Source: Oscillospiraceae bacterium
GTDB taxonomy: Bacteria > Bacillota > Clostridia > Oscillospirales > Ruminococcaceae
Reading direction: 5' to 3'
NCBI GenBank assembly: GCA_017550285.1
Contig: JAFZPP010000024.1
Span: forward strand, 1-60,917
DNA length: 60,917 bases
The translations under genes and the position numbers were made by a program. The notes below the pieces were generated by a model that saw only the letters and a list, made by a program, of their open reading frames with translations, ran no database searches and was not told the origin of the DNA. Below, piece by piece: positions 1,100 to 3,683 of the stretch; positions within the stretch are counted from its first letter, which is position 1, and the number at the start of each line of letters is the position of its first letter.

Positions 1100-2380
1100 T
1101 TATACCGCTGCGAAGCCTTTTTCGAGATCGGCAATAATGTCGTCGATGTGCTCTGTACCGATTGAAAGACGGATCGTCGCCTGCGTAATGCCTGCTTCGG
1201 CGAGCTCCTCCTCGGAAAGCTGCGAATGCGTCGTTGTTGCCGGATGAATCACCAGCGACTTGACATCCGCGACATTTGCGAGCAGCGAGAAAATCTCCAG
1301 ATGATCAATAAACGCATGGGCTTCCTTCTGTCCGCCCTTGATCTCAAAGGTAAAGATGCTGCCGCCGCCGTTCGGGAAATACTTTTCATAGAGCGCATGG
1401 TCAGGATGCTCCGGCAGTGACGGATGATTGACTTTTGCGACCTTCGGATGATTTTTCAGATATTCAACAACCTTCTTCGTATTCTCCGCGTGGCGCTCCA
1501 GACGCAGCGAAAGCGTCTCTGTGCCCTGCAAGAGCAGGAATGCTGCAAACGGCGAAATCGCTGCACCCTCATCACGCAGCAGAATCGCGCGGATATAGGT
1601 CACGAATGCTGCCGGACCGACCGCATCCGCAAAGGAAATGCCGTGATAGCTCGGATTCGGAGCTGCAATCGGTGCATATTTTCCGCTTGCCTTCCAGTCA
1701 AACTTACCGGAATCCACAATCACGCCGCCAAGCGTCGTACCGTGACCGCCGATGAACTTCGTTGCGGAATGCACAACAATATCTGCGCCGTGCTCAATCG
1801 GACGGATCAGGAACGGCGTACCGAAGGTATTGTCGATGACCAGCGGCAGACCGTGACGGTGTGCAATTTCTGCAACCGCATCAATATCCGGAATATCGGA
1901 ATTCGGATTGCCGAGCGTTTCGAGATAGATTGCCTTCGTATTCTCGCGGATTGCGCCCTCGATCTCTGCAAGATTATGCGCATCCACAAAGGTCGTCTCA
2001 ATGCCGTACTGCGGCAGCGTATGTGCGAGCAGATTGTAGCTTCCGCCGTAGATTGTCTTCTGTGCGACGATGTGCTCACCTGCCTGTGCAAGCGCCTGAA
2101 TCGTGTATGTGATGGCAGCCGCACCGGATGCCAGTGCCAGTGCCGCGACGCCGCCCTCGAGTGCTGCAATGCGCTCCTCAAAGACGCCCTGCGTCGAATT
2201 TGTCAGTCTGCCGTAGATATTGCCTGCATCCGCCAGACCGAAGCGTGCTGCTGCGTGTGCGGAATTCTTGAAAACATAGGAAGTAGTCGCATAAATCGGA
2301 ACCGCTCTTGCGTCCGATGCCGGATCGGGCTGCTCCTGCCCGACGTGAAGCTGTAAAGTCTCAAATTTATAATTGCTCAT
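1100..2380 (-). CDS. metY: O-acetylhomoserine sulfhydrylase (PLP-dependent)
   Basis: The protein has about 426 residues and belongs to the Cys/Met-metabolism PLP enzyme family. It opens with the characteristic [13 protein letters not shown], and the PLP-binding lysine lies in [11 protein letters not shown]. It should convert O-acetylhomoserine plus sulfide (or a thiol) to homocysteine plus acetate in the cytoplasm. I place the start at the ATG at 2380 (MSNYKFET), 9 bases from a GAGG motif; two earlier in-frame ATGs (2395, 2386) lie too close to or inside that motif. A consensus promoter and a short ORF ending in three Cys codons precede the gene, which suggests regulation by cysteine supply. 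The specificity (acetyl versus succinyl, homoserine versus serine) is inferred from overall similarity. Confidence 0.92.
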
Positions 2381-2408
2381 TTTCATATACCTCATTTCAT
2401 AATTTGAA

Positions 2409-2421
2409 GCGGCATTGCCGC
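2409..2421 (-). other. Small hairpin between leader ORF and metY
   Basis: GCGGC-AAT-GCCGC forms a short stem in the leader RNA. It sits immediately after a CAACAAC tract (complement of 2423-2429) that can pair with the Cys codons of the leader peptide. No T run follows, so it is not a standard intrinsic terminator. Confidence 0.4.
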
Positions 2422-2468
2422 GGTTGTTGTTTCAGAATATGCATCCTGCACGGGGGTTACGGTTTGCG

Positions 2469-2540
2469 TCAGCAACAACAGAGGTACATTCGTCCGAAGC
2501 GGTAATTTTTCCGGTTCAGATCGGGAAACAGAATATTCAT
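2469..2540 (-). CDS. Cys-Cys-Cys leader peptide (putative cysteine attenuator)
   Basis: This 23-codon ORF begins at the ATG at 2540, 7 bases after a perfect AAGGAG ribosome binding site (2548-2553). It reads MNILFPDLNRKNYRFGRMYL and then three consecutive Cys codons (TGT TGT TGC) followed directly by TGA. It lies between the consensus promoter at 2587-2615 and the O-acetylhomoserine sulfhydrylase gene. Consecutive codons for the regulating amino acid at the end of a leader ORF are the hallmark of translation-coupled attenuation, and polycysteine leader peptides that act as cysteine sensors are known in mycobacteria. The Cys codons can base-pair over 7 bp (GTTGTTG with CAACAAC) with sequence 43-57 bases downstream. 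The regulatory role is inferred; the ORF, its ribosome site and its Cys run are seen directly. Confidence 0.75.
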   Translation of the reverse strand: MNILFPDLNRKNYRFGRMYLCCC

Positions 2541-2559
2541 ATCCGCTCTCCTTGTATTT

Positions 2560-2574
2560 CTACTTGTTTAGTAG
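2560..2574 (-). promoter_or_regulatory. Candidate operator at metY transcription start
   Basis: An inverted repeat CTACT-AAACA-AGTAG lies about 6-20 bases downstream of the predicted transcription start. Its position suits a repressor. Similar sites are associated with Rrf2-type (CymR-like) cysteine regulators in Clostridia, but that link is from memory and not tested here. Confidence 0.4.
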
Positions 2575-2586
2575 GATTATGGTGCT

Positions 2587-2615
2587 ATTATAGCATACCG
2601 CCGCCGGATTGTCAA
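2587..2615 (-). promoter_or_regulatory. Consensus sigma-A promoter for leader peptide/metY
   Basis: A perfect TTGACA (2610-2615) and a perfect TATAAT (2587-2592) are separated by 17 bases on the minus strand. The predicted start is near 2580, giving a leader of about 200 bases before the metY start. Confidence 0.88.
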
Positions 2616-2762: not shown

Positions 2763-3683
2763 TTATTCATCCAGTGTACGGGCGGTCAGTCTTGCACGCT
2801 CGCCGAGATCGCTTCCGGCGCCTGCCTTGCCGATCTTAATTGCATTCTGGTCATAGTGCATACGGATAACGAATGCAACCAGACCCGGGTTATTATCGAC
2901 ACGCAGATTCATTCTGACGGTATCGCCCGGCTTTGCGCTGATCGTTTCCGGTGTCAGGGTCATTTCGGTGCCGAGTGCCGGAATCTCAGGCTGCTCGGAA
3001 TTGACGCAGATATAGCCCGGACGGAACTTGACATTGTCGAGCTTTGCAGCATTTTCGTCCGTATTTGCGCTGTAGTTGGAAAGGTCTGCGAAATAGACCT
3101 CGACCGGATACACACCGTCCGGCGTATCCTCCTTGACCGTGATCTCAAATTCCAGCAGGTTGCCGTCGAAGATGAAGTCCGCCTGCTCGGAAATATCGAG
3201 CCAGTATGCCTGATAGGTTTTGATGCTCGGGGTATAGCCCTTTTCATAGACAGCGGCATTTGTTTCACCGGTGTAGAGCTCGGTTGCCTCCTCGCCGTTT
3301 GCATCGGTCACGGTTGCACCGTTGATATCGGTCTTTGCGATATAGATTTTGCCGTCGTCCGCACGCTTCGTCGAAACGATCGTATCATCCTCTTCCAGCT
3401 GCGGCTGCTCAAACACGAGCATGTGGTTCTGTGCGCCGTTCGGGTCAATGACGACGCCCTCATCTACCGGTTTGCTTTCGCCGTTATTGCCCTGCGCCTG
3501 CTGATTGCCGTCATTGGAATTTGCATCAGAATCGCTGTTTTCATTGCCGTTTGCGCTCTCGGCAGCGCTGCTCTCAGAATTATTCCCGTCGCCGCCCTCG
3601 ATCTTCTCGCCGCAGGCGAATGCCGGAATCGTCATTGCAGCAGCAAGCAGTGCCGCAAGAATCCGTTTATTTCTGAACTTCAT
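2763..3683 (-). CDS. Secreted cohesin-like domain protein
   Basis: The protein has 306 residues. It has an N-terminal signal sequence ending near AFAC (a weak lipobox, so possibly a lipoprotein), then a low-complexity Ser/Asn/Asp/Glu linker of about 50 residues. Residues about 160-235 (FDGNLLEFEITVKEDTPDGV... to FRPGYICV) resemble the second half of a cohesin-fold domain. Residues about 245-290 (ISAKPGDTVRMNLRVDNNPG..., then MHYDQNAIKI) resemble the first half of one. The two halves are therefore in reverse order or belong to two incomplete copies. A cell-surface structural or binding role is likely, but the exact function is unknown. The ATG at 3683 is preceded by AAGGAG with 7-base spacing. 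The gene is monocistronic, with its own promoter and terminator. Confidence 0.75.
   Translation of the reverse strand: MKFRNKRILAALLAAAMTIPAFACGEKIEGGDGNNSESSAAESANGNENSDSDANSNDGNQQAQGNNGESKPVDEGVVIDPNGAQNHMLVFEQPQLEEDDTIVSTKRADDGKIYIAKTDINGATVTDANGEEATELYTGETNAAVYEKGYTPSIKTYQAYWLDISEQADFIFDGNLLEFEITVKEDTPDGVYPVEVYFADLSNYSANTDENAAKLDNVKFRPGYICVNSEQPEIPALGTEMTLTPETISAKPGDTVRMNLRVDNNPGLVAFVIRMHYDQNAIKIGKAGAGSDLGERARLTARTLDE

Follow-up and report, generated by a model that had tools for sequence, protein, structure and literature searches.

The window analysed in this study, a stretch of 60,917 nucleotides, harbours on its minus strand a predicted sulfhydrylase gene preceded by a short open reading frame with a promoter and a ribosome site of its own. 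The gene, metY (1100..2380), is assigned to the O-acetylhomoserine/O-acetylserine sulfhydrylase family (TIGR01326, 633.3 bits against a cut-off of 495.1) and probably begins at the ATG at position 2380 (MSNYKFETL), which was preferred over the ATG at 2395 given by the ORF tool because the relatives begin MSNYKFETL and the codon at 2395 overlaps the Shine-Dalgarno sequence. Upstream, a predicted promoter (2587..2615, minus strand) combines TTGACA (2615-2610), a 17-nt spacer and TATAAT (2592-2587), with a TG ahead of the -10 box; as an earlier note on this DNA had claimed, it is perfect, matching 12 of 12 consensus positions. The 46 nt that separate the -10 box from the ATG of the leader, including an AAGGAG Shine-Dalgarno sequence (2548..2553, minus strand) read from the sequence, argue against a leaderless start. 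The leader ORF itself (2469..2540, minus strand) encodes the 23-codon peptide MNILFPDLNRKNYRFGRMYLCCC followed by a stop. Its codons 10-18 (2487..2513, minus strand), R-K-N-Y-R-F-G-R-M, constitute a core conserved in the leader comparison, in which a CGA codon for Arg17 (2490..2492) directly precedes AUG18; three Cys codons, TGT TGT TGC (2472..2480), close the frame immediately ahead of the stop TGA (2471-2469). The arrangement described in the same note, a 23-codon ORF with a ribosome site and a Cys-Cys-Cys-stop end ahead of metY, is indeed found. Between the metY unit and the gene upstream of it lies a 15-pair hairpin (2705-2740), terminator-like in both directions in our scan; that gene (2763-3683) appears lipoprotein-like by eye and has no NCBIfam match.

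A protein search with metY in 30 genomes of the same genus, its own included, retrieved matches at E<=1e-150 in 20 genomes and none in the other 10. The leader was present in 18 of the 18 metY loci with at least 83% identity and upstream DNA, the window's own counted; the remaining two of the 20 loci consisted of a gene cut by the contig end (L023) and a sequence 68% identical that lacks the leader (L024). Arg10, Asn12, Arg14, Arg17 and Met18 occur in all 18 leaders, while Tyr13, Phe15 and Gly16 differ in a few. The Cys part ranges from CCC, in the window alone, to none in L013, where the stop immediately follows Met18. Within the genus the ORF is thus conserved (18/18) and its CCC run is not, CCC reappearing in distant leaders such as L076 and L120.

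Beyond the genus, Clostridia of several families carry the leader ahead of metY or of genes for NlpA-type transporters. The 141 unique leaders were drawn from the genus set, a family pattern search, a scan of named genomes and an order-wide HMM search, and were reduced by string similarity, at a cut of 0.85, to 118 non-redundant leaders for all counts of codons, tails and spacing. Because the collecting expression took the start nearest to nine codons, the count of 134 leaders out of 141 with that spacing is biased; an unbiased count placed an ATG exactly nine codons ahead of Arg10 in 105 of the 118. The same expression demanded Arg14, Arg17 and Met18 as well as a start between 4 and 14 codons upstream; the three residues are also found in all 18 loci retrieved through metY alone. 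What is conserved in the leader is a core of some 18 codons with R-x-N-Y-R-F-G-R-M at its end; behind it the frame either continues into a Cys-rich tail or stops at once.

The family pattern search gave matches in 12 of 297 genomes, four of which were judged non-leaders; L037 sits within a gene, and in L028, L035 and L038 an Arg position is occupied by Ser. At E<=1 the order HMM search matched 56 of 117 genomes, mostly through short or in-gene matches, and 17 genomes at E<=0.001; four weaker matches (L175-L178) were accepted by eye, second matches in two genomes (G160 and G392) were left out, and L179-L181 were removed since they carry no motif. The named-genome scan yielded at least 119 stretches, 80 of them among the matches listed, and gives no measure of spread; eight of the loci L039-L118 (L040, L042, L060, L069, L078, L080, L081 and L101) were removed as chance, in-gene or masked. 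Among the matches listed, leader-bearing contigs belong to Ruminococcus, Ruminococcaceae, Oscillospiraceae, Lachnospiraceae, Blautia, Tyzzerella, Cuneatibacter, Mobilibacterium, Eubacteriaceae, Christensenella and Clostridia, mostly as metagenome assemblies. In a search of 199 genomes of the phylum at E<=0.001 the window's own genome was the sole match, a result that says little about Clostridia, as only five of the 21 genomes listed share its class (in or outside the order of its genus).

Where a gene start was assigned (132 leaders), an automatic call gave 100 metY genes, 15 lipoproteins and 17 others. Among the latter, L057 and L062 precede metY according to Pfam, L109 according to its sequence and L133 according to the first residues; the genes of L049, L094, L096, L137, L139, L145 and L153 are assumed to be metY from an MGLFGKKKK-like start as in L057 and L062, and those of L121 and L127 look like lipoproteins. 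Genes of the MGLFGKKKK type carry a low-complexity N-terminal stretch, the Cys/Met metabolism domain beginning at residue 59 in L057 and L062. Pfam identified NlpA lipoproteins in L050, L070 and L102 and in the third gene of L067; in L098 the leader precedes an ABC permease, and in L115 an ECF transporter S component. The 550-aa protein behind the leader of L050 (3-1652, minus strand) joins family-3 solute-binding and NlpA domains and could be a two-substrate binding protein. ThiF-family genes follow the leader in L067 (4041-6760), alongside the NlpA lipoprotein and a gene that looks LysR-like by eye, and in L115 (1003-2323), where the gene lies behind the ECF transporter S component; both are possible further members of the regulon.

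The comparison supports selection, at the level of sequence, on codon 17 being CGA. Among the 39 non-redundant leaders gathered with a demand for the Arg residue and none for its codon, CGA was found in 39, the other 79 of the 118 having come from a pattern that demanded it. In these unforced leaders CGA occurs at Arg10 in one and at Arg14 in four, and in the downstream genes it accounts for 2.1% of 1451 Arg codons. A tail Arg directly ahead of Cys is likewise encoded by CGA in 37 of 40 cases (11/12 in the unforced set), against 6 of 45 for other tail Arg residues (3/24), and the first tail Cys codon directly follows ATG18 in 49 of 85 leaders and CGA in 18. We considered a UUC-GGAC-GAA hairpin as the cause of the constant CGAATG and rejected it, since codon 15 changes and CGAATG stays. 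The own genome yielded 45 tRNAs, a set that is incomplete as it contains no tRNA-Trp, with the Arg anticodons TCT, ACG, CCT and CCG; CGA is thus probably decoded by the ACG (inosine) tRNA alone, unless a TCG tRNA is missing from the incomplete set. CGA was reported, in part of a study of the Salmonella his leader, to be translated more slowly than CGU and CGC (PMC4046918).

Tails were present in 91 of the 118 leaders and contained Cys in 85, the remaining 27 leaders stopping directly after Met18 (codon 19); in the unforced set, codon 19 is a stop in six of 39, and Cys is present in 31 of 33 tails. Cys makes up 0.17% of the codons of the downstream genes. Within the five codons after Met18, TGY was found 140 times in 590 in frame, compared with 20 and 9 times in 590 in the other two frames, and this enrichment in frame only indicates that the tail Cys codons are selected as codons. 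TGA is the stop in 21 of the 27 codon-19 leaders, 54 of the 91 tailed leaders and 30 of 93 downstream genes; the idea that TGA is decoded at codon 19, as selenocysteine or as Cys, was discarded, TAA and TAG being found there too. The leader of L177 (12-189) has a long tail with two Cys-rich stretches (CGCLCC and CCC) that ends 4 nt ahead of the metY ATG.

The leader of the window, folded over 216 nt, reaches -55.8 kcal/mol (z -3.85), and none of 200 shuffled sequences was equally stable. In the minimum-energy fold, AUGUACCUC (2489-2481, codons 18-20) forms a 9-bp helix with GAGGUAUAU (2393-2385), which includes the Shine-Dalgarno sequence of metY. This helix, absent from the earlier note, encloses two hairpins and the 7-bp helix between the Cys codons (GUUGUUG, 2479-2473) and CAACAAC (2429-2423) described in the note; both that helix and the adjoining GCGGC-AAU-GCCGC hairpin (2409..2421, minus strand) are recovered in the fold. 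In the loci checked, the GUUGUUG/CAACAAC helix keeps its match with changed letters in L006 and L007, and hairpins of other letters occupy the place of the GCGGC hairpin in L006, L007, L009, L010, L011, L013 and L014. The pairing for which we tested conservation, and established it, is instead the one with the Shine-Dalgarno region of the next gene.

To that end, the segment following codon 18 of each leader was paired with its own Shine-Dalgarno region and compared with permuted partners from other loci. Redundancy was cut at a similarity of 0.80 for the 95 units of this test, at 0.75 for a scan with 15-nt segments, and at 0.75, 0.65 and 0.58 for tests on divergent units. Own partners pair with a mean of -8.49, permuted ones with -6.56 (sd 0.21), corresponding to z -9.0 with 0 of 5000 permutations reaching it, whereas a control segment, leader codons 1-11, gave z -1.4 and was not significant. 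The scan, in 78 units, peaked at two offsets from the A of AUG18, +0 to +14 with z -8.8 and +6 to +20 with z -6.2, followed by the offsets -6 to +8 (z -3.9) and -30 to -16 (z -2.5); with codons 2-9 of the target gene, z never fell below -2.3 at any offset. The signal persists in more divergent sets (z -5.3 with 47 units, z -5.6 with 27), in the 19 units stopping at codon 19 (z -5.8) and the 59 tailed ones (z -6.2), and is strong in 61 metY units (z -8.5) and weak in 17 units not called metY (z -2.1). A reservation is that matched pairs are correlated in G+C content (0.27-0.32), although other offsets share this property. Matching pairs with changed letters comprise ACCUC/GAGGU in the window, CCUCAUC/GAUGAGG in L012, UACCUCUUUC/GAAAGAGGUA in L022, UGAUCCUCA/UGAGGAUCA in L175 and UGUUUCAUC/GAUGAAAUG in L018. 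The comparison thereby supports a selected pairing through which the leader region would sequester the Shine-Dalgarno sequence of the downstream gene in many metY units. Pairing with the Shine-Dalgarno region ranked in the best 10% in only 28 of 95 units and in the best 25% in 45; in roughly half of the members no clear pairing is seen, and the output step may therefore differ among them. By eye, an ACAUUYG-type box (ACAUUUG-like), complementary to the constant CGAAUGU, was seen just upstream of the Shine-Dalgarno sequence in L072, L088, L099, L161 and others.

When a ribosome was simulated on the window leader, the probability that the metY Shine-Dalgarno is unpaired rose from 0.001 without a ribosome to 0.56-0.61 with the P site in codons 14-23. 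In the same folds the openness of the metY start codon dropped from 0.69 to 0.26-0.35, and for this reason the simulation gives no fully open start site. Across the family, with gene starts assigned automatically and ORFs below 100 codons ignored (so that L170 and L171 may be misassigned), a ribosome at codon 18 made the Shine-Dalgarno sequence more open by over 0.3 in only 28 of 130 units; the mean change was +0.13 and the median +0.07, and some units lost openness, e.g. L076, which went from 0.97 to 0.34.

Taken together, the comparison supports a leader peptide and Cys codons under selection, and the reading that we favour, with somewhat better than even confidence (slightly reduced by the result for the metY start codon), is translational attenuation: the ribosome site of metY would be freed when a ribosome is held at CGA-AUG or on the Cys codons. 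The leader would be transcribed from its own promoter and translated. On fast passage of the ribosome, the segment behind codon 18 would pair again with the Shine-Dalgarno sequence and close metY, as folding and covariation suggest; a ribosome detained on codons 17-18 or on the Cys codons that follow would cover that segment, leaving the Shine-Dalgarno sequence free and metY translated. Elsewhere, the same release would lead to production of an NlpA-type transporter. In the simplest account, scarce Met-tRNA or Cys-tRNA would cause the hold, and the next codon would owe its sensitivity to the slowness of CGA and to the conserved nascent peptide R-x-N-Y-R-F-G-R. The signal would be a shortage of Met- or Cys-tRNA, or else a metabolite that the nascent peptide recognises. 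Cys scarcity alone could not be the general signal, because leaders stopping at codon 19 have no tail Cys. A bare tRNA-shortage model leaves the retention of Asn12, Tyr13, Phe15 and Gly16, which are mostly kept, unexplained, and the conservation of the peptide makes a component of nascent-chain arrest plausible.

The main rival carries that component further: nascent R-x-N-Y-R-F-G-R-M would itself stall the ribosome at codon 18, depending on whether a sulfur metabolite is bound or absent. Neither elongation into Cys nor termination could then proceed, tRNA charging would be irrelevant and the output at the Shine-Dalgarno would be the same. TnaC and SpeFL are known to arrest at termination, and the conserved residues, the near-constant distance from start to Arg10 and the leaders that stop right after Met18, with their frequent TGA, would fit such an arrest. 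However, the excess of TGA is not peculiar to these leaders, tailed ones favouring it as well, the tails are strongly enriched in Cys, and Arg17 is fixed at the level of the codon, which a purely peptide signal would not need; we hold this reading to be possible, if on balance unlikely. Rather less credit is due to the classical cysteine attenuator proposed by the earlier note, with the Cys run as sole sensor through a shortage of Cys-tRNA, which we consider improbable. The frequency of Cys in the tails, far above that in downstream genes, and the CCC end of the window speak in its favour, and what stands of the proposal is a sulfur-linked regulatory leader peptide, well supported by the comparison, whose tail Cys codons are selected. 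The Cys run is nevertheless not constant, given the tailless leaders, and the constant codon pair is CGA-AUG. Furthermore, the role of metY and NlpA/MetQ-type genes extends to methionine and is not confined to cysteine.

Transcription attenuation through an intrinsic terminator is very unlikely: terminator-like structures between leader and gene were found in two of 119 units (L171, whose start may be misassigned as ORFs under 100 codons were ignored, and L178; 0.1 expected) and are absent from the other 117, and the T-run of the match in the window (2409-2421) lies on the opposite strand, leaving the leader without an intrinsic terminator. A conserved RNA or DNA site for a protein, with a merely fortuitous open frame, could be thought of given that TTYGGNCGAATG is nearly constant as DNA. 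It seems the most remote of the readings weighed here, since Asn12, Tyr13, Arg10 and Arg14 switch between synonymous codons with the residue kept, and codon 15 becomes AAC, CGC, CGT, TAC or TGC while CGAATG stays.

A further, speculative reading would let sulfur status be sensed through CGA itself, the level of 2-thiolation at C32 of tRNA-Arg(ICG) setting the movement of ribosomes through CGA-AUG and CGA-UGY; we give it a small chance only. Besides the Arg anticodons given above, it draws on the tRNA-Arg(ACG) of the own genome, which has C32, and s2C32 tRNA-Arg(ICG) is described, in part of a review, as unable to wobble to CGA (PMC5372741). A TtcA-like protein of that genome scores 188 bits, under the curated 272. 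TtcA-like matches, none of them over the cut-off, did not correlate with the leader, occurring in 20 of 21 leader-bearing genomes (G343 being without a match) and in 20 of 20 others, and as they are nearly universal, their co-occurrence is uninformative. If the thiolation reading were true, 'CGA before a sulfur amino-acid codon' would represent a general sensor word.

Searches of databases placed the leader in no described family. Rfam at gathering scores matched a single tRNA in the whole window, nothing up to E 5 in 2340-2650, and two tRNAs only in 20 relative loci, with no riboswitch, T-box or other family. The window's leader and two further leaders had no match in Pfam-A or NCBIfam, and a third further leader had none in Pfam. 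Among the open-licence PMC papers listed, none describes the leader by title or start of abstract, and 'YRFGRM' occurred in 0 papers. In the own genome, a SAM riboswitch was matched once and T-boxes four times (two of the latter over the cut-off), on contigs C21 (10936-11039), C22, C39, C49 and C29, and none on that of the window (C30). With these leaders, the control of sulfur amino acids in gut and rumen Clostridia, usually credited to riboswitches or T-boxes, gains a putative regulon that can be tested. A codon-level rule, with the rare CGA directly ahead of Met18 and of Cys codons, is unpredicted by classical attenuator models; were it causal, it would constitute a new way for codon context to tune a metabolic sensor.

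Several known systems resemble the leader in part. The arrest peptides TnaC and SpeFL, whose ligands are tryptophan and ornithine, resemble it in a conserved peptide, a fixed length and, should the leader arrest ribosomes, a stop codon adjoining the arrest site, and differ in sequence, ligands and output. In translational attenuators of the ermC type, a ribosome held on the leader frees a sequestered Shine-Dalgarno sequence; the release would be the same here, with sulfur supply as the probable signal in place of an antibiotic. The ermC-type mechanism is outlined in part of PMC13236596. In Rhodobacterales, uORFC-8-2 ahead of cysS carries tandem Cys codons and an intrinsic terminator, and ribosome-mediated attenuation was proposed for it in a section of PMC8632094; the likeness lies in a uORF with Cys codons, whereas the terminator, the gene, the peptide and the phylum differ. 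Closest are the polycysteine uORFs of mycobacterial cys operons (Canestrari et al. 2020), referred to as translation attenuation in a passage of PMC13236596, Cys-codon ORFs of these operons being also treated in part of Seliverstov et al. 2005 (PMC1262725). As far as the available text of these sources goes, they too combine a short ORF, Cys codons near the stop, adjacent sulfur genes and no obvious terminator, but they are leaderless according to the title of the cited paper, unlike the window leader with its own ribosome site. The NYRFGRM-type core, the CGA rule, the metY and NlpA genes and the occurrence in Clostridia are further differences, and to our knowledge neither such a core nor the CGA rule exists in the mycobacterial uORFs. 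The leader would operate like known translational attenuators, while its core, its CGA rule, its start at a ribosome site and its genes set it apart from the mycobacterial uORFs.
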